Origin: a virus
Virus record (IMG/VR): IMGVR_UViG_3300017967_000114
Coordinates: 1-31,541 of that record
Strand: one strand, 5' to 3'
DNA length: 31,541 bases
The number at the start of each line of letters is the position of its first letter. Within the stretch, counting starts at the first letter, position 1. The notes under the pieces were generated by a model. It did not search any database. It was given only the letters and a program-made list of their open reading frames with translations, and was not told the origin of the DNA. This document shows positions 6,268 through 14,470 of this stretch, piece by piece. The position numbers were made by a program, and so were the translations under genes.

Positions 6268-8775
6268 TTATTTCTGGACTGCCGTAATTACTGCTTCGTT
6301 GAATTCTTTGTCTCCGATTGAAACTTTGACCTCCAATCCTTCTAGATTGAGCACATTTTCTAGGTTACTCACAACATTAACACTTGCTGCTGTTATTTTT
6401 GCGCCGGTCATAGAGTCCTTGGCTGTTCCTGTGCTTAACAGTGCAAGGTTCTCCAACACAGATGATACTTTAACTTTCTTTCCGTCAAGAGCATTAACAG
6501 CCGCTGACAATTCGAGCATTCCAACAGCCATGGTTGAAAATACTTCGCCAAGTGCTGCAACATTTTCCATGGAGATATTTGATATTGCTTGAAGACCATC
6601 TGAAATTGATTTTAAAACACCGACAGGCAACAGATTTAACGCGGCGGCTAGTGCGATCAAAGCAACCGACAACGCTGCAAATCCTGCTAATGCCATACCA
6701 CCAACAATTGGATTTGTAGCAATAGCGCCAAGTATTAATGCAATTGCCGTAAGTCCTCCAATAAATATGAGGAAATCCGTTAGCATACCGCTTTCGAGTT
6801 CAGACAGTCCTTTACCGAGAAGAACAGCCGCCAATCCAATACCAATTAGGCCACCAACCAAGATTGCAATCGCAGGCCCACCCCTTATAACAGATTTGGC
6901 TAATATTTCCATTGCTCTTCCAATGCCTGTTGCAATCTGCATCATAGCACCGGACACACTGGGAGCGGCAGCATTCATTTCGGCTGCTGCCGCAGCGGTT
7001 TTGCCCGCTGTCAAGCCCAACATATTTCCAAGCGTCCTAAGAGGGCCAAAGATTGTTGCAAATATGGCTTTAACACCAGCAAATGTCTTAAATGCCAAGA
7101 AAAGAACTAAAATACTGGATGCGATGCCTGTTAAAAATTCTTGTGTATCTTTATCAAGATCTCCAAAAAAGTTTAAAACAACATCTAAAGCACCATGAAT
7201 ACTCTCAAGAATTGGAATAACTCCGATTGCAAACTCTGCTGCGATTAATTTGAACTTTTCCTGAATTGGAATGGTTGCTTGAACAGCATCTTCAAATTTC
7301 TTCTGCACCTCGGCTGATTTGCTCATGGCATCTTGGTAGTTTCTAAATTGTCCGATATCCATTCCAAAAATACGTTGAGCTTCTGCAAGATCATCAATAC
7401 CAGCAGCCGCAGCAATTGCTTTCTGTGTGAAACGATCCATATCTTTAAACGATCGACCTTGTGCTTGCATGTTTGCAATAAGAGTCTCAATTCTTTGTTC
7501 TTCTGATTGTCTCAAGAGATCAACAGCGGACATTTGAGTTCCCAATATTGCGTTCAATTTACCTGTTGTATCGGCTGCCGAAGCAAATGTGTCAAACTTT
7601 CCGGCCAATCCAAGAAGCTTGCTCATCTCGACACCAGCGACCTTGGCAGCCGCAGCAAGACCCTTGAATACTTCCTGAGAGCGATCGCCGTATACTGCAA
7701 GAGTTGGAAGCGCTGCTTGAAAATCTTTTGTTATTTGACCGGAAGTCATACCCAATTCTCGGCCCATCATTGCCAATTCTTTTGTAACACGAACACCTTC
7801 TTCTGCTGTCATTCCCAAGTTCTGGTTGAAAAAGTTGATAAGACCAGCGGATGTATCAGCGGACACACCAATTCTTTCAAGTTGGGCGACATTTGAAACT
7901 AAAGCTGCTTTTGAGTCAGATGAAATATTAACAAAGTTTGTAAAACCTGCTGCGAGGCTTTGTGTTGCTTTTCCAGCACCATCCATTGTAACGCCAAGAT
8001 AGTTGCCTTGTTGTTGTGCGTCGCGCATTGTTTGATTGAACTGATTCCCGAAGCCTGTTGCTGAAGCAAACGCTGTCGAGGCAGCATCCAAAGCCATAAC
8101 AAGAGTAAAAGTTGAATCTGCAACGACATTTAGAAGATTACCGGCAATATTTGTGAGATTAACTGTATCTATAATTGCTTGACGAAAGTTTTGTTGAGCC
8201 TCTTCGCTATTTGCAAGTTCTTTTCCAAGTTTGCGAAAACCTAGAACTTGCTTAACAAGAGGGCCTTTGCCAAATATGATCATTTTCTGTCCAAGAGAAT
8301 CAATTGATCTTTCGTATTTATTTGCTGTTTTTAAAGATTCTTTCCTAGATTTATCAACCGCTTGTGCTTCAGTCCTCAAAGCCGCCGCAGACTTTCCTTC
8401 TGCATTTAAAGCAGCAGTTAAATTTTTAATTTGTTTTTCTAATCTCTGTGCTTCTTCGGTATTTACCTCATTGAAGGTAAGCATTTGTTTTTGTCTTTCA
8501 AGCAAGTCAGCAAGAATTTCTAATTGCTCTTGCCTTGCTTTCTTTTCTGCTACAATTCTTTGAGTTCCATCTTGAACTGCATTTGCAAGATCAATATTAA
8601 CCTGAAGTTCTTTTAATTTTGCATCGGTTAAATCATTTAATGTTTTTATATTTTCTGCATCAACTTTTATGCGTGCTTGAGTTGCCTTTTTTAAGCCAAT
8701 TTCCTCAAGATCGTCAGAGGATAGGTCTTTTAGTGCTGCTTTTAATTCTGCTATTGTGAATGTTTTTTCAGACAC
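6268..8775 (-). CDS. Tail tape measure protein, 835 aa
   Basis: This sets tail length during assembly and is likely ejected with the DNA. The N-terminal ~150 residues are helical and coiled-coil-like, rich in Ala, Lys, Glu and Leu. A long Ala/Gly-rich helical body follows. From about residue 550 there are several strongly hydrophobic segments (for example SSILVLFLAFKTFAGVKAIF, GPAIAILVGGLIGIGLAAVLL and LIFIGGLTAIALILGAIA), which are typical of tape measures. The start is a GTG with a GAGGA site just upstream, and the gene begins 3 bases after the stop of the preceding gene. At about 1.5 angstroms per helical residue, 835 residues imply a tail of roughly 125 nm (inference). It lies between the tube/chaperone genes and the baseplate genes, as expected. 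Confidence 0.9.
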   Translation of the reverse strand: MSEKTFTIAELKAALKDLSSDDLEEIGLKKATQARIKVDAENIKTLNDLTDAKLKELQVNIDLANAVQDGTQRIVAEKKARQEQLEILADLLERQKQMLTFNEVNTEEAQRLEKQIKNLTAALNAEGKSAAALRTEAQAVDKSRKESLKTANKYERSIDSLGQKMIIFGKGPLVKQVLGFRKLGKELANSEEAQQNFRQAIIDTVNLTNIAGNLLNVVADSTFTLVMALDAASTAFASATGFGNQFNQTMRDAQQQGNYLGVTMDGAGKATQSLAAGFTNFVNISSDSKAALVSNVAQLERIGVSADTSAGLINFFNQNLGMTAEEGVRVTKELAMMGRELGMTSGQITKDFQAALPTLAVYGDRSQEVFKGLAAAAKVAGVEMSKLLGLAGKFDTFASAADTTGKLNAILGTQMSAVDLLRQSEEQRIETLIANMQAQGRSFKDMDRFTQKAIAAAAGIDDLAEAQRIFGMDIGQFRNYQDAMSKSAEVQKKFEDAVQATIPIQEKFKLIAAEFAIGVIPILESIHGALDVVLNFFGDLDKDTQEFLTGIASSILVLFLAFKTFAGVKAIFATIFGPLRTLGNMLGLTAGKTAAAAAEMNAAAPSVSGAMMQIATGIGRAMEILAKSVIRGGPAIAILVGGLIGIGLAAVLLGKGLSELESGMLTDFLIFIGGLTAIALILGAIATNPIVGGMALAGFAALSVALIALAAALNLLPVGVLKSISDGLQAISNISMENVAALGEVFSTMAVGMLELSAAVNALDGKKVKVSSVLENLALLSTGTAKDSMTGAKITAASVNVVSNLENVLNLEGLEVKVSIGDKEFNEAVITAVQK

Positions 8776-8778
8776 TTA

Positions 8779-9126
8779 TTAGTCCTCGTCTTTAAACGGC
8801 CATGTGATTCCGGTTTTGTTTTCAAAGTCACCAACGGCTTGATCCAATACAATACGTTGTTTATTGGTCATTGGGTGGTCTTTGCCAAATTGTGCGTAAG
8901 CCTCAAGGTAATCTTTTTCAGCAAAAAGAGCCTTTGCATATGCTTTGACATCTTTTTGTTCGCCTCGAATGATAAACTTCAACGATTGTTCTTCTTCATT
9001 AAGGTTTGCAACAACATTGACATCTTTACCATACATATATTTAAGCAAAGCCTTGCTCCACTGCCCAAATGCATTAATCCAAGCCTCGGTTAGAAGTCTG
9101 GGATCTCTTGTTAAATCAATCTTCAT
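8779..9126 (-). CDS. Small conserved-looking tail-region protein, 115 aa, unknown function
   Basis: I take the ATG at 9126 because GGAG lies 9 bases upstream. An in-frame TTG at 9141 overlaps that ribosome site and is unlikely to be used. The protein is soluble, mixed in charge, and mostly helical, with central strands (VNVVANL, LKFIIRGE). It ends ITWPFKDED, with an acidic tail. I do not recognise the family. It is the first gene after a terminator and a candidate promoter, directly before the tape measure. In many phages that position holds a tail chaperone or a protein binding the tape measure, but this is positional inference only. Confidence 0.8.
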   Translation of the reverse strand: MKIDLTRDPRLLTEAWINAFGQWSKALLKYMYGKDVNVVANLNEEEQSLKFIIRGEQKDVKAYAKALFAEKDYLEAYAQFGKDHPMTNKQRIVLDQAVGDFENKTGITWPFKDED

Positions 9127-9159: not shown

Positions 9160-9183
9160 AAAAAAAATGCCCTTGCGGGCATT
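9160..9183 (-). terminator. Intrinsic terminator after tail-assembly genes
   Basis: Read on the minus strand, a perfect 7-bp stem AATGCCC/GGGCATT with a GCAA tetraloop is followed by a run of T. It begins 2 bases after the stop of the short +1-frame ORF and ends before a candidate promoter, so it separates the sheath/tube/chaperone genes from the tape-measure and baseplate genes. Confidence 0.88.
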
Positions 9184-9185
9184 AA

Positions 9186-9389
9186 TTATGATTTCTTCCG
9201 TGCTTTTTCCATTTCTTTCTTTTCATCCTCGAATTGTTTTTGCAAACGCTTCACAAACCAATTTCGAAGACCCACGGGGAGGTTGTAGGCCTCAATAAGA
9301 GACCATCCACCAAAATGTTTAAGCAAAAAGAACTGTTCGTAAACAGATTCGGAATATTTATCGGTCAGGCCAAAGAAAGTCGGCCCCAA
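9186..9389 (-). CDS. Short ORF in +1 frame to gp26-like gene; probable tail-assembly (gp51-like or frameshift) product
   Basis: The convincing protein is the C-terminal ~58 residues: DKYSESVYEQFFLLKHFGGW, then an LPVGLRNWF segment, then a highly charged helix ending EKARKKS. It overlaps the end of the gp26-like gene in the +1 frame. No ATG gives a sensible start, because the ATG at 9479 lies deep in the overlap and would add meaningless sequence. Two ways to make it are visible. One is a TTG at 9389, 5 bases after a GGAGGT inside the upstream gene, giving 67 aa. The other is a +1 ribosomal frameshift near the upstream stop, for instance at CTT-T (9375-9372), which would fuse it to the zinc-ribbon protein. 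In T4, gene 51 likewise follows gene 26. A terminator follows at once. The start coordinate is therefore tentative. Confidence 0.65.
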   Translation of the reverse strand: MGPTFFGLTDKYSESVYEQFFLLKHFGGWSLIEAYNLPVGLRNWFVKRLQKQFEDEKKEMEKARKKS

Positions 9390-10200
9390 AGGGCACCTCC
9401 ATTTCCTGATCAAAGCCACAATTCGAACATTCAAAATGCTTCTGGACTTTAACATCAGGATTGACCAATTTATAAGCATTTCTTAAAAATCTTGCGTCAC
9501 GCAAAGGCATGTTATCAACATAATGATTAATAACGTTTCTTTGAGAGTTGCCTTGCACTGATACAATCATCATTTTGTACTGATCGGTCATTCCTGTCTC
9601 TTGCATCATGCCTTTTTTGCGAGATTCGGCCATTTTTGTGATCTGTTTCTCGTCATTTCCGGTCAAAACTCTGATTTCAACCTCAAATTTGCTAAAAGGC
9701 ATGGTCAAAAGGAAATTATTGTTCTCGGTCTTTCTAATTCCAAGTCCCTCATCAACTTTTGACTCATTTATGTGCGGATTTGCAAGGTCAAATGACTCAT
9801 GAGACTTTGTACCGCAGTTAGGGCATACAACTTGAGTCTCATAATCGCTTCCATAGCCTGTTGAGCGCGCAGCGATTAAGATTGCATTCTTATCTCCAAT
9901 CAAAAGATCATTGACTTTGATGTTTTTGTCAACAATAATGTTCTGAAGGAAGCGATCAATTGCAACACCTTTCTTGAGGAGCGTCTTTGATGTAAGGATG
10001 TCCTCTTCTTTGGCTGTCATATACCTAATCTCGATTTCTTCTTTTCCATGGAGCGGATGATCGGCAGGATAAAGCAAACCTTTTGATGGAATATCCACCA
10101 ATTCCGTGGGAGCGACAAACTCAAGCGGGTTCAATGCCGCTGTTGGCTCCGAATCGATTGTTTGAGGTCCGATTCTATCCTCATTATTTCTTGTAGTCAA
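9358..10200 (-). CDS. gp26-like baseplate/tail-assembly protein with zinc ribbon, 280 aa
   Basis: The protein carries the DIPSKGLLYP motif (about 36-45) and the RYMTAKEEDIL segment that mark the gp26-like 'T4 baseplate' family found in many myoviruses. Two CxxC pairs are visible, C126/C129 (CPNCG) and C258/C261 (CSNCG), which probably bind one zinc ion together. The start is a TTG, supported by a GAGGTG ribosome site 4-5 bases upstream and the absence of a suitable ATG. The last residues (MEVPFGADFLWPDR) run straight into a second ORF in the +1 frame, so a longer recoded form is possible. T4 gp26 is assigned to baseplate hub assembly. The position between tube and tape-measure genes also matches that of tail assembly chaperones in other phages. 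Confidence 0.8.
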   Translation of the reverse strand: MTTRNNEDRIGPQTIDSEPTAALNPLEFVAPTELVDIPSKGLLYPADHPLHGKEEIEIRYMTAKEEDILTSKTLLKKGVAIDRFLQNIIVDKNIKVNDLLIGDKNAILIAARSTGYGSDYETQVVCPNCGTKSHESFDLANPHINESKVDEGLGIRKTENNNFLLTMPFSKFEVEIRVLTGNDEKQITKMAESRKKGMMQETGMTDQYKMMIVSVQGNSQRNVINHYVDNMPLRDARFLRNAYKLVNPDVKVQKHFECSNCGFDQEMEVPFGADFLWPDR

Positions 10201-10211
10201 ATTTCACCTCG

Positions 10212-10835
10212 TTATGCTACAGTTGGGTCTGTGATATCACCGGTATTATTCTCTTGATTTACTTGCTCTCCGGCTTGGACATTATCAACAGCGACGGGGA
10301 CAAAAACAGGATTAACAGAAAGTCCATCAATTTGAGCCCAGTCATAGGTTATTGTAAGTTCGATTGAAACCAGATCATCTGTTGAATAATCAAGGCTTCC
10401 AAAGTTTACAGATTTTAAAATTGCTCCTCGAAGCTTCCATTCTTCAAGAACGTTGCCTTTTTCATCTAATTGATTTATTGAAATAGCATCGAAATAAGCC
10501 TCAGTTTTTGACTTCGAGATGCCATCTATATATTGCTCTATATTTGCATAGTTAGGGTAAATATAACCGAAATTAAAGGCTTTATTCAGCAGCAATTGCG
10601 TCTTATTTGATGTGTCGACAATAGAGATTGTAACATCGTTCCAAGTGAGAATGCCCGGATACTTAAATTTATGATTTATAAGTTGATATTCGTTTGTTGA
10701 AATCTCGTATGATGGCTTTGTAACCGACTTGGCCCAATACCAAATGGCTTCTCCATCTTCAACACCATCGTTGGCATCTAGAATGGAGAAGCGATATTGT
10801 CTTTTAGGGGCTGCGTTGTTGGTCCAAAAAGCCAT
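10212..10835 (-). CDS. Tail tube protein, second copy, 207 aa
   Basis: This is a gp19-type tube subunit; stacked hexamers form the inner tube inside the sheath. It starts MAFWT, followed by KRQYRFSILD, and has the family's later YPGILTWNDVTISIVD and 'D-Y-S-x-(D/E)-D-L-x-x-(I/V)-x-L-T-I-x-Y-D-W-A' stretches. It is clearly paralogous to the gene immediately before it, which shares the same N-terminus, YPG..W..V, and LTI.YDWA segments. It is 13 residues shorter and differs most in the middle and tail. ATG start with an AGAGGT site, 10 bases after the first copy's stop. Having two tube genes suggests either two tube sections or one copy specialised for an end of the tube. Confidence 0.88.
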   Translation of the reverse strand: MAFWTNNAAPKRQYRFSILDANDGVEDGEAIWYWAKSVTKPSYEISTNEYQLINHKFKYPGILTWNDVTISIVDTSNKTQLLLNKAFNFGYIYPNYANIEQYIDGISKSKTEAYFDAISINQLDEKGNVLEEWKLRGAILKSVNFGSLDYSTDDLVSIELTITYDWAQIDGLSVNPVFVPVAVDNVQAGEQVNQENNTGDITDPTVA

Positions 10836-10845
10836 TTAACCTCTA

Positions 10846-11508
10846 TTAGGATCCAAAACTCGGATCGTTGTCTATATTTCTACCTTCATTATTTGGAGTG
10901 TAATCAGGACCCTCAGAAGGATTATCACCGACATTAAAGAAAGTTTCTTCTTGTTGGAAATCGGGATGAGTTTCAGGGAATGTACATGTGGCCCAGTCAT
11001 ATCTGATGGTCAAATCAACTGTTCTAAGATCTTCATTTGAATAATCAAGATCTCCAAACTTTGCTGATTTAATAAATGGCTGATTAAGGGTCCACTTTTC
11101 TACAACCGCACCATCTGCTTTTAACACTTCAATAACAATTAATTGCAATCCAGCATCAATTGAAGCATTCTTGGAAATAGTGTGAAACTGATCTGGGTCT
11201 GTGTTTTCTGGAACCATATAACCAGAATTAATTAAAATCTGGTTCATAACACCAACAGCATCAGGAGAAATGGGATCAACTAAGGTCATTGTAACTTCCG
11301 ACCACGATACTTTACCGGGGAAATAATACTTACCTCCAAGATAATGATGTTCGGTTTCACCTAGATCAAAAGACGGAGTAGTTACAGTCTTCGCCCACCA
11401 TAAAATGCCTTCAATTACTGAGTTACCGCTTGCATTATTCGATACGAATTGAATTCTGAATCTAAAGTTTCTTTTAGGTTCTACACCTGCTGAAGTCCAA
11501 AAAGCCAT
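10846..11508 (-). CDS. Tail tube protein, first copy, 220 aa
   Basis: A gp19-like tube subunit. The MAFWTSAGVEPKRNFRFRI N-terminus, the YFPGKVSWSEVTMTLVDP segment and the DYSNEDLRTVDLTIRYDWA segment are typical of the family and repeat in the downstream paralogue. The C-terminal ~35 residues are an Asn/Pro/Gly/Asp-rich tail absent in that form from the second copy. ATG with a GGGAG site. A candidate promoter motif (CTAATTA) lies 21 bases upstream, in the gap after the sheath gene, so the tube genes may be transcribed more strongly than the sheath, as tube and sheath subunits are needed in hundreds of copies. Confidence 0.9.
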   Translation of the reverse strand: MAFWTSAGVEPKRNFRFRIQFVSNNASGNSVIEGILWWAKTVTTPSFDLGETEHHYLGGKYYFPGKVSWSEVTMTLVDPISPDAVGVMNQILINSGYMVPENTDPDQFHTISKNASIDAGLQLIVIEVLKADGAVVEKWTLNQPFIKSAKFGDLDYSNEDLRTVDLTIRYDWATCTFPETHPDFQQEETFFNVGDNPSEGPDYTPNNEGRNIDNDPSFGS

Positions 11509-11545: not shown

Positions 11546-14470
11546 TTAGAATTGAACTCCGGATCTTGTGATTACAAAGTCAACTGCAATAAACTCAATT
11601 GCTTTGGCTGGCTTCACATAGATCTTGGCGTAGAGGATGTTTCTGTCCTGAAGATCTGGAGTGGTTGTGGTTGAATCAAGAACAACTTTGAATTCTGTAA
11701 TTCCGCCTCGTGCTTTAATTCTGTTAAGCACGCGTTCTGCTCTACTCTTGAACTTGTTCCAAGTAACTTGGATGTTCTGGTCGAACAGAATAGTATTAGC
11801 AATTCTGCCGATTCTCTTCTTGAGATAAATCATCATGCGACGAACGTTGATTCTGTCAAGAGCCGATGGAGTCTGCTGGAGTGTCTTCTGACCGAAGATT
11901 ACAAACTCTCCTTGGAGTCTAGCAATTGGGTTAACATCAAGTTCATAGAGGTCATCACGATTTGCTTTATTCATGGTCTCAACAACTGAAAGCGTGCTAG
12001 GTCCGTTGGTTCCACCAAGGTTTGTAAGTCCGCCACGATTGAATCCGGCAGGAGCAAACCAAGGAGCGGTAAGCGCTTGAGATCTCGCAAGAGCACCACA
12101 GGCAGCAACCGAAGGAGGAACAGGAGTCACAACTGTATCACCTTTCTGCTGGACTCTAACCCATGGGTGATATGCGGCAGCGTATGAGGAATCAAAGTTT
12201 CTGTTTCGAACATCAGAAATAACAGTTGCAAGTGAGCCTTTGCCTTCTAGAGAAGGTGTTGTTTCTGCTGCGGTTGTGTACGCATTCTCAAGGTCAATGA
12301 TTGCAAGAGAATCTTGACGCTCATCAACAACTTCAATCATTCTATTGGTGATATCAGAGTTGTTAATACCGGGCAGAAGAAGAAGATCCATCTCAACAGT
12401 TTCTGGGTCCTCAGCAATATCGAGAGCCTTGTTCAAACTGTAGTATGTGTAACTTGTTGATTCGCTTGATCCAATGACACCACTTCGGTTATTAAAAGGC
12501 TCAAGTTCGGTAATTTTAAGCCCATCAAAGCCACCAAAGAGTGGGACAATGAATTGTTTAATTTTTGCATCAATAAGTGCTTGATCACCATTGGTCGCAG
12601 TATAAGATGTACCAGCCAGACGAGAACCAGAAACATGATATGCTCTAACATTTGTTGAGTCATAAACAACATCATCAAGTGAGAAGATAAACGAAGTTTC
12701 TGTAGCATCGGCAGCAGTGCCTGTATTTGCATGAGCATCAAATCCACGAGGCATTGCTCGGAAAAGATCTCTGTATGATTGATCTAGCAAGTTAGATGAA
12801 GAAAGTTGCTGATTAACACCGAACAAGTCGGTTACTTTGTAGTTGGCATTCTGAACGCCTTTTGAATCAACGGTGGTTAGTCTCAACGATGGAAACTTAA
12901 ATGTGACGATTCTTTCGTCTGCACCATCTTTTGACCCCACAAGAGCAAATCCACTTTGATCAGCATCAGCGATTTCTTCTGGAACACCGGGAAGGTTACC
13001 AGAACCAACAACCATTGCATGAACAAGGTTTGAACCGTAATTATCTGGGCTTACTGGTCGTGAATTACTACCAGATAGGCAAAAGTTCAAGAACTTTTGA
13101 GGACCGTAGAAACCAAATGGGATTGCATATTCGTCTTGAGGCTGCTGATCATTCTTAAGAGCGTCAGCCATTTCAATTCGGATGTAGTCAGATTGATTGT
13201 TGTATTTTCCAACCATATTGAATTTCTTATCACCGTCATCCCAGACCATATTCATATCACCAATTCTTTTAAGAATGTAGTTGTCTGAAACAGGATTCAT
13301 AGAAAGGTTTGAGAATTGTTCAACAAGCCTTTTGGTTCCCCACTCATAAACACTGAGAGTGAAGGTTGAGTTCTTATTGACCTCGGTCCCAAGTTTGAGG
13401 CCTTCGATAGCACAATAATACTGATCTTGAAAGGACTTGCCTTCATGAAGAGCAATAATACGGAAAAGTTTTTCAGCATTTTCTGGAGTATAATTTGTAT
13501 TGTCCTCAGAAGGATCTCTGTTAATAATCCAGCCAGATTTAGCAGCAGTTGCAGCAAATTCATGATCTGAATATTCTGTCAATGATGGGCGACCAGCACC
13601 GGGAACAACGCCGGTTGAACCAGATGCCAGACCAAGCATAATCCCCAATTGCTCTCCTGCTGTACCGGTAGAAGAGCCGTCTCGATTAAGCATTTCTTCA
13701 AATGTTTCACCAAGCCAGTAAGTTTTAATATCAGTACTATCGTTAATATTGGAATTGACTTTATGAGGTGTGGTATTAAAAACAGTTCTAATATAATTCT
13801 TGCTTCCGGGTGTAAAGTCAAATACAACGTTGTCAACAACAGCACCGTTATTATCTTTAACCAACGCTCTAAAAGTAGAACCATTACCACTTGCAAGAGA
13901 ATTAATCATCACAGCGGAACCAGTACCTTGCGTAGTTCCAGCATTATCAGCAATTGTACCCGAAAGTTCAATTGAACCTTCGTTAACATAGAAAATTGCC
14001 GCAAGCGAACCACTAGAATTGGCTTGAGGGCTTGAACTGGAGGGAGCAACGAAAAGACCAAAAGCACCACCTGATGCAGAGTATGCTGTATCAAGGCTGT
14101 TGGCAGTATCCCACCCTGCTCTACCGGCAGTGGTTGCATTATCTGACTGTTCACCCAAAAGACGAACGAAAGTAATTGGTGTATCGTTTGCTGCAAGCCA
14201 TGCTTCAGCAGCAATACCAGCGTAAGTTGGAGCAACAGTGTTGCCTTGTCTCCAAATATCCATTGGGCCGGGCTGTGGGCCATATACAGGATTACCAAAT
14301 ACTGTGACAAAATCATCAAACGATTGGATTCTAATTGGCTTCATTGAAGGTCCACGAAGGGCACGACCAATTAAAAGCGGACCGTCTTCCTGCAATTGTG
14401 CTGGAACAGTGCTTTGATCAACCTCGGTCAATTGGATGCCGGGAGAAATAAAATCAAACTTTCTAGGCAT
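11546..14470 (-). CDS. Contractile tail sheath protein, 974 aa
   Basis: This is the gp18-like sheath subunit that contracts to drive the tube through the host envelope. The N-terminus FISPGIQLTEVDQS..P and the ALRGPSMKPIRIQSFDDFVTVFG stretch are the family's tube-proximal domain. The C-terminal ~130 residues (ARLQGEFVIFGQKTL, INVRRMMIYLKKRI, ending AVDFVITRSGVQF) form the conserved core and linker arm. It is much longer than T4 gp18 (about 660 aa). The extra length lies in the middle (about residues 130-650), where surface-exposed protruding domains are inserted in this family. ATG with a GGAG site. A 60-base leader with a candidate promoter (CTATTTA at 14502-14508) precedes it. Its presence makes the phage a myovirus. 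Confidence 0.95.
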   Translation of the reverse strand: MPRKFDFISPGIQLTEVDQSTVPAQLQEDGPLLIGRALRGPSMKPIRIQSFDDFVTVFGNPVYGPQPGPMDIWRQGNTVAPTYAGIAAEAWLAANDTPITFVRLLGEQSDNATTAGRAGWDTANSLDTAYSASGGAFGLFVAPSSSSPQANSSGSLAAIFYVNEGSIELSGTIADNAGTTQGTGSAVMINSLASGNGSTFRALVKDNNGAVVDNVVFDFTPGSKNYIRTVFNTTPHKVNSNINDSTDIKTYWLGETFEEMLNRDGSSTGTAGEQLGIMLGLASGSTGVVPGAGRPSLTEYSDHEFAATAAKSGWIINRDPSEDNTNYTPENAEKLFRIIALHEGKSFQDQYYCAIEGLKLGTEVNKNSTFTLSVYEWGTKRLVEQFSNLSMNPVSDNYILKRIGDMNMVWDDGDKKFNMVGKYNNQSDYIRIEMADALKNDQQPQDEYAIPFGFYGPQKFLNFCLSGSNSRPVSPDNYGSNLVHAMVVGSGNLPGVPEEIADADQSGFALVGSKDGADERIVTFKFPSLRLTTVDSKGVQNANYKVTDLFGVNQQLSSSNLLDQSYRDLFRAMPRGFDAHANTGTAADATETSFIFSLDDVVYDSTNVRAYHVSGSRLAGTSYTATNGDQALIDAKIKQFIVPLFGGFDGLKITELEPFNNRSGVIGSSESTSYTYYSLNKALDIAEDPETVEMDLLLLPGINNSDITNRMIEVVDERQDSLAIIDLENAYTTAAETTPSLEGKGSLATVISDVRNRNFDSSYAAAYHPWVRVQQKGDTVVTPVPPSVAACGALARSQALTAPWFAPAGFNRGGLTNLGGTNGPSTLSVVETMNKANRDDLYELDVNPIARLQGEFVIFGQKTLQQTPSALDRINVRRMMIYLKKRIGRIANTILFDQNIQVTWNKFKSRAERVLNRIKARGGITEFKVVLDSTTTTPDLQDRNILYAKIYVKPAKAIEFIAVDFVITRSGVQF

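Follow-up and report, generated by a model that had tools for sequence, protein, structure and literature searches.

The gp26-like gene and the frame that crosses its end

The stretch of DNA analyzed here (the window, 31,541 nucleotides) is a fragment of a virus genome whose minus strand carries a contractile-tail module. In this module a gp26-like gene and an open frame that overlaps its end, here called X, together occupy 9186-10200 and sit on the way from tail tube to tape measure, as expected of a G/GT-type pair. The features referred to below, in the direction of transcription, are:

11546-14470, minus strand: sheath gene
10212-10835, minus strand: tail tube gene, upstream of the gp26-like gene (phrog_4542, E 4.6e-26; PF06841, E 1.7e-5)
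9358-10200, minus strand: gp26-like gene (PF12322, T4_baseplate; phrog_150), proposed tail assembly chaperone "G", the product of normal translation
9189-10200, minus strand: predicted frameshift product gp26-X, 337 aa, translated with TTTC as one step
9395-9400, minus strand: GGAGGT, SD-like, 16 nt upstream of the first slip codon, with the same spacing in 34 loci
9387-9389, minus strand: TTG, candidate independent start of X (GGAGGT-N5-TTG in the window)
9370-9378, minus strand: proposed +1 shift site TTT-CTT-TGG (TTTCTTTGG), from site conservation, followed by CCT at 9369-9367
9186-9377 (stop included), minus strand: X, the +1-frame domain of 63 aa, proposed "T" part of the fusion, from an alignment of 82 X sequences
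9166-9183, minus strand: intrinsic-terminator-like hairpin AATGCCCGCAAGGGCATT-TTTTTT directly after X, from a terminator scan
6268-8775, minus strand: tail length tape measure gene, downstream (phrog_167, E 5e-7)

The gp26-like gene starts with TTG at 10200 and stops with TAA at 9358-9360, so that its product ends ...GADFLWPDR. This protein matches PF12322 (E 7e-13; 49.2 bits against a curated cut-off of 24.5) and phrog_150 (E 3.5e-17), and contains two Cys pairs as zinc-ribbon halves. A gp26 search found no second gp26-like gene in the 31.5-kb record, itself a fragment. Elsewhere in the module, the sheath gene is unusually long (974 codons), with sheath domains confined to its last third, and two tube-like genes lie side by side (10212-10835 and 10846-11508), PF06841 being weak for both. 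A 114-residue gene at 8779-9123, between X and the tape measure gene, had no family match. The terminator-like hairpin just 3' of X suggests that X is the last part of the gp26 transcript.

The +1 frame stays open between about 9482 and a stop at 9186-9188; it crosses the end of the gp26-like gene, continues beyond its stop and, from 9377, reads FFGLTDKYSESVYEQFFLLKHFGGWSLIEAYNLPVGLRNWFVKRLQKQFEDEKKEMEKARKKS. Taken alone, this open frame is modest evidence and only mildly unusual: an equally long +1 open frame occurred in 18 of 1000 dinucleotide shuffles, and codon-position GC is alike in the +1 frame (0.51, 0.26, 0.44) and in gp26 (0.49, 0.32, 0.41). The frame goes beyond chance because the protein downstream is conserved at this junction in 85/87 loci. 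X has relatives in DUF6760 (PF20546), in a short cyanophage ORF annotated as gp51 and in the C-terminal part of T4 gp51. PF20546 is matched by 20 of 48 aligned X relatives (best E 3e-5) and not by the X of the window, for which single searches against phages gave mostly chance matches, except Microcystis phage Mel-JY01. X has no gp26 domain of its own, and no separate gp51 gene was recognized in the window.

Conservation of the overlap and the site of the probable frame change

The 87-locus set consists of 80 IMG/VR loci obtained by a gp26 scan (37-98% identity), the window and six named records: Mel-JY01, Flavobacterium phage immuto, LR756508, Listeria phage LIS04, Bacillus phage SP-15 and Streptococcus phage GXN1. 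Three loci of the set are cut by a contig end. The first-pass annotation had proposed recoding by a +1 shift and an alignment of homologues as the check; the overlap proved to be conserved, and in 85/87 loci X occupies the +1 frame from this one junction onward. Seven further MAG loci join this +1 group. A scan of genome contigs returned phage-like MAG contigs only. The only exceptions among the 87 are L050 and L051, identical in sequence here, which have TTC-TTC-TGG with X in the -1 frame and reflect either a contig indel or a different slip.

The junction is a nearly invariant TTT-TTT-TGG-CCT-like site. Across the 87 loci the two junction codons are TTTTTT (68), TTTCTT (12, including the window), TTCTTT (4), TTCTTC (2) or TTTCTA (1); the next codon is TGG in 80/87 and is followed by CCT in 82/87. 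All 85 of the +1 loci have UUU-Y in the first or second junction codon, which lends strong support to recoding in the +1 direction. The positions originally given for CTT-T (9375-9372), for GGAGGT (9400-9395) and for TTG (9389) were all correct on re-reading, but CTT-T, then likened to the CTT slip site of prfB, is not the conserved element. The common rule is UUU-Y, present in the window as TTT-C at 9378-9375 in addition to CTT-T, so that the candidate P-site is UUU-C or, alternatively, CUU-U. From the shared site and frame, we consider it likely that ribosomes shift by +1 on UUU-Y. In 60-nt windows after the site, mean z was -0.2 to -0.5, with no strong downstream RNA structure; given these weak values, we claim no stem-loop or pseudoknot.

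Where X begins can be read from the alignment of the +1 frame, in which mean pairwise identity is 0.53 over the eight codons downstream of the site versus 0.20 over the 15 codons upstream. This rise at the slip site indicates that X begins there, and not at a start codon farther up. A +1 stop occurs within 15 codons upstream of the site in 39/78 loci, and in 32/87 loci no ATG, GTG or TTG lies between the last +1 stop and conserved X. For the window itself the +1 frame had been said to lack a plausible ATG; ATGs do exist (9479 and 9455), but they fall in the unconserved stretch.

An alternative is that X is a separate small protein initiated at TTG 9389 from GGAGGT 9400-9395, its overlap with gp26 being a matter of compact packing. 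GGAGGT-N5-TTG would serve well as a start in the window and in L011-L013, and gp26 in the window itself begins with TTG; initiation at TTG 9389 may occur in the window phage and its three nearest relatives. However, just six of the 34 GGAGGT loci keep the TTG (the window, L011, L012, L013, L026 and L041), and at this codon, among 85 loci, TTG is found in 17 and a stop in 25. Initiation there thus cannot be the family's route to X. The 32 loci with no NTG whatsoever and the poor conservation of the +1 frame upstream of the slip site also speak against a TTG start, and a separate start would leave the invariant slip codons unexplained. We regard this alternative, which the first-pass annotation had offered as the rival to recoding, as very improbable.

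GGAGGT is nevertheless kept at the nucleotide level within the clade of the window; other +1 lineages lack it. The codon that has the first G of this motif as its wobble base varies (ATG, TTG, CTG, GTG, CGG) and specifies Met, Leu, Val or Arg, and the Leu codons at this position all end in G, compared with 31% elsewhere. As a clade-wide initiation signal for X it was rejected, 26/34 loci having no properly spaced start codon. It may be a stimulator or, in this phage, may position ribosomes for TTG 9389; we know of no stimulator that its 16-nt spacing fits, in either the prfB or the dnaX model. With the CUU-UGA site of prfB (RF2) the window shares CUU-U and the upstream SD-like GGAGGT. In prfB, however, the A site holds a stop, whereas the A-site codon in the window is CTT or TGG, and the SD spacing is about 3 nt in prfB versus 19 nt (to CUU) in the window, where CUU is moreover not conserved.

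The same frame would be reached by a shift of -2, as occurs in phage Mu, and at TTTTTTT sites a P-site Phe tRNA could indeed move two bases back. Yet in the four loci with TTC-TTT a shift of -2 would land on TCT, and re-pairing also fails in L003 (CTA to TTC); +1 on UUU-Y, unlike -2, works in 85/85, and we hold a -2 shift to be quite improbable. The seven consecutive T found in most relatives might also suggest slippage of RNA polymerase on the T run, which would produce mixed mRNAs. The T runs are of only 3-4, however, in the window and 11 other loci (TTTCTTT) and in four loci with TTCTTT, and the frame of X is unchanged there; runs of this length are too short for transcriptional slippage, to which we give hardly any credence. 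Tested on the 87 loci, four general explanations were rejected: an independent TTG start, a shift of -2, slippage during transcription and sequencing error.

Programmed frameshifting very likely yields a chaperone fusion, gp26-X. Most ribosomes would translate the gp26-like gene and stop at 9358, while a minority would slip by +1 at TTT-CTT-TGG (9378-9370), the most likely event being movement of tRNA-Phe from UUU to UUC. Ribosomes that had slipped would continue into X to give a 337-residue product with the predicted junction ...GADF-F-GLTDKY... for a slip at TTT, or ...GADF-L-GLTDKY... for a slip at CTT. That the shift occurs, with what efficiency and at which exact codon, and that the ratio of the two products is important, we infer from the loci compared.

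A second lineage and the T4 genes 26 and 51

An outward search from T4 gp26 reached a second lineage, comprising cyanophages, pelagic phages, KVP40-like phages, PhiW-14 and Ishigurovirus phages. Here gp26 ends in NNT-TTT-TTC-NNN-stop (TTT-TTT-stop in Melnitz), with X following on in the -1 frame. In an IMG/VR scan started from S-RIM8, 80/80 loci had T_TTT_TTC and X in the -1 frame, and the -1 frame is likewise used by the large-genome records LR756511 and XacN1, whose sites read T_TTT_TT. The cyanophage gp26 and "gp51" (Kyanoviridae, S-RIM8, S-PM2) resemble the arrangement in the window in that X overlaps gp26, lacks a conserved start and has a slip site at the end of gp26; they differ in using the -1 frame at T_TTT_TTC, and their X is annotated as a short separate gene or is absent from the annotation. 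When profiles of the +1 and -1 fusions were compared, the alignment spanned almost their full length and took in X (probability 99.5%, E 3e-22), and X(+1) against X(-1) alone gave a probability of 96% by hhalign. A clear slippery heptamer is missing in VAP7 and T765. An ATG overlaps the gp26 stop in PhiW-14 (L102), VH1_2019 (L105, KVP40-like) and VAP7 (L106), so in these three coupled initiation is possible besides or instead of frameshifting.

X of the -1 type is present in 518 phage records and, among the records listed, is labelled "baseplate hub assembly catalyst" (gp51) or "hypothetical", or is unannotated. Several annotated short ORFs (L100 3232-3369, L101 3223-3366, L002 3833-3943 and L006 3755-3874) are truncated X sequences that start internally and carry the labels "baseplate hub assembly catalyst" or "hypothetical"; in LIS04, ZPAH1, T765 and GXN1, X is unannotated.

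T4 gp26 and gp51 (PF12322, phrog_150) are homologous to the protein of the window in the gp26 domain, with Pfam matches to PF12322 of E 9e-64 (215.6 bits) for T4 gp26 and E 4e-52 (177.5 bits) for T4 gp51, and gp51 carries 48 extra residues. In a 16-sequence search, to which the following E-values refer, the -1 fusion HMM matched T4 gp26 over model positions 10-239, up to the slip site, where gp26 ends in KEFFELL (E 1.9e-23), and Aeromonas phage 31 gp51 over 14-290, across the junction and through X (E 2.7e-18). Profile against profile, the -1 fusion and gp51 aligned with a probability of 99.3%, and X(-1) and the gp51 C-terminus with 97.4%. A profile comparison based on a single sequence gave no significant match to T4 gp51; significance came only when profiles were built from the -1 fusions and from eight gp51 proteins. 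Because the direct comparison of +1 X with the gp51 C-terminus is weak (8.7%), the link between the two runs through the -1 lineage.

In a tree, seven gp26 and eight gp51 proteins form sister clades with joint support of 100/99, the pattern that a duplication leaves. T4 differs from the lineages above in having two divergent genes and no frameshift. The first-pass annotation had suggested that genes 26 and 51 of T4 stand in the same order as the two frames of the window and that the overlap might link T4-type hub assembly proteins to tail assembly chaperones. The second idea is strongly supported, gp51 aligning through X; the first fails, genes 26 and 51 being adjacent yet on opposite strands. 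In RB43 (L192) a gp51-like gene is followed by a gp26-like gene on the same strand, unlike the divergent pair of T4. Relatives in which the two genes are separate, start with ATG and do not overlap had been named at the outset as evidence against recoding; they were encountered in T4-type phages only, where gp51 is itself a gp26-plus-X fusion. The simplest reading of these alignments is that T4-type phages replaced frameshifting by two genes, with 26 as G and 51 as GT.

Relatives with a single fused frame, which had also been sought, do exist. Searching 296 genomes from a single bacterial phylum for PF12322 gave three loci. In two of them, L197 and L198, a single 255-codon frame that adjoins an apparent tube gene encodes both the gp26 domain and a DUF6760/X-like one, and the match of L197 exceeds the DUF6760 (PF20546) cut-off. 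The bacterial loci L196-L198 all have PF12322 and an X-like C-terminus in one frame, with PF20546 detected in L197 and L198; they are possibly phage-like contractile injection systems.

A probable tail assembly chaperone of the G/GT type

The AlphaFold model of gp26-X from the window has a mean pLDDT of 86 and a pTM of 0.73; the final model used an alignment of gp26 rows only, so that X was modeled from one sequence, at a pLDDT of about 50-88. When Foldseek candidates were compared with VIA-align, 3FGX ranked first for this model (Z 6.6, 84/96 residues) and 2OB9, HK97 gp13, second (Z 5.8, 90/104 residues), the next candidate reaching 3.1. For a second, independent model of a cyanophage-type gp26, 2OB9 came first (Z 7.6, 83 residues, rmsd 3.6; next 2.3). 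Both 3FGX and 2OB9 are tail assembly chaperones (PMC9603447). The likeness is middling in Z and limited to the N-terminal domain of about 100 residues; Foldseek E-values were not significant for either model (0.29 and 0.8), and sequence searches of solved structures gave no match. That the same chaperone family stands alone at the top for two predicted models is hard to dismiss.

Since the gp26 models best match chaperones and the gene lies between tube and tape measure, we read gp26/X as a tail assembly chaperone of the lambda G/GT type, made by programmed frameshifting that would here be +1. Chaperones of the lambda/HK97 type occupy the same place between tube and tape measure, and the predicted N-terminal fold of gp26 may resemble theirs. 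Lambda gpG/gpGT and its relatives such as HK97 gp13 (2OB9) likewise have an overlapping downstream frame, with the slip site shortly before the first ORF ends. Lambda, however, shifts by -1 and the lineage of the window by +1, and the window gp26 is about twice the length of a lambda/HK97-type chaperone and has a zinc-ribbon part, no sequence similarity between them being detected. The direction of the shift varies among known members, being -2 in Mu, so a +1 shift bars identity with lambda and not membership of the type. For the chaperone of the archaeal myovirus HSTV-2, compared here by description only, very likely +1 frameshifting has been reported (PMC5009743). If lambda gpG/gpGT is taken as the guide, the gp26 part would bind and coat the tape measure protein, and X would bind the tube, bringing in its subunits.

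It could instead be argued that gp26 and X are parts of the baseplate hub or hub assembly factors, as in the historical annotation of T4 gp26 and gp51 as hub and hub assembly proteins, and that frameshifting only tunes hub assembly. The likeness of two independent models to the HK97/Rbstp2171 chaperone fold, the position between tube and tape measure and the G/GT architecture all argue against this. T4 gp26 and gp51 have, moreover, already been described as hub assembly chaperones, with gp51 reported missing from the particle and gp26 counted among the assembly chaperones (PMC3004832), and we consider the hub reading unlikely. In the record of Acinetobacter phage Octan, gp26 and gp51 are both labelled "tape measure protein assembly chaperone". 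We found no report of a gp26 frameshift in the open-access literature, and a G/GT assignment of gp26/gp51 together with their frameshifts is absent from the literature and records examined.

For the chaperone reading as a whole, it is on balance probable that phages with a T4-type gp26 all share one G/GT system in four interchangeable modes, and that in T4 duplication of the gene into 26 and 51 took the place of an ancestral frameshift. The four modes would be a +1 shift at UUU-Y without a stop codon, a -1 shift at U_UUU_UUC, in-frame fusion and gene duplication. T4 has been treated as the exception to the rule of frameshifted tail assembly chaperones (per a 2016 review); if the reading is true, the old "hub assembly catalyst" gp51 would be the GT partner, and T4 would be no exception to the G/GT rule. 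In the UUU-Y site there would be a natural example of a +1 shift site that is widely conserved and functions in the absence of a stop codon, and the annotation of hundreds of cyanophage genomes, in which X is called a separate "gp51" or missed, would be corrected. If gp26 is G and gp51 is GT, this would also supply one testable idea in the best-studied phage.
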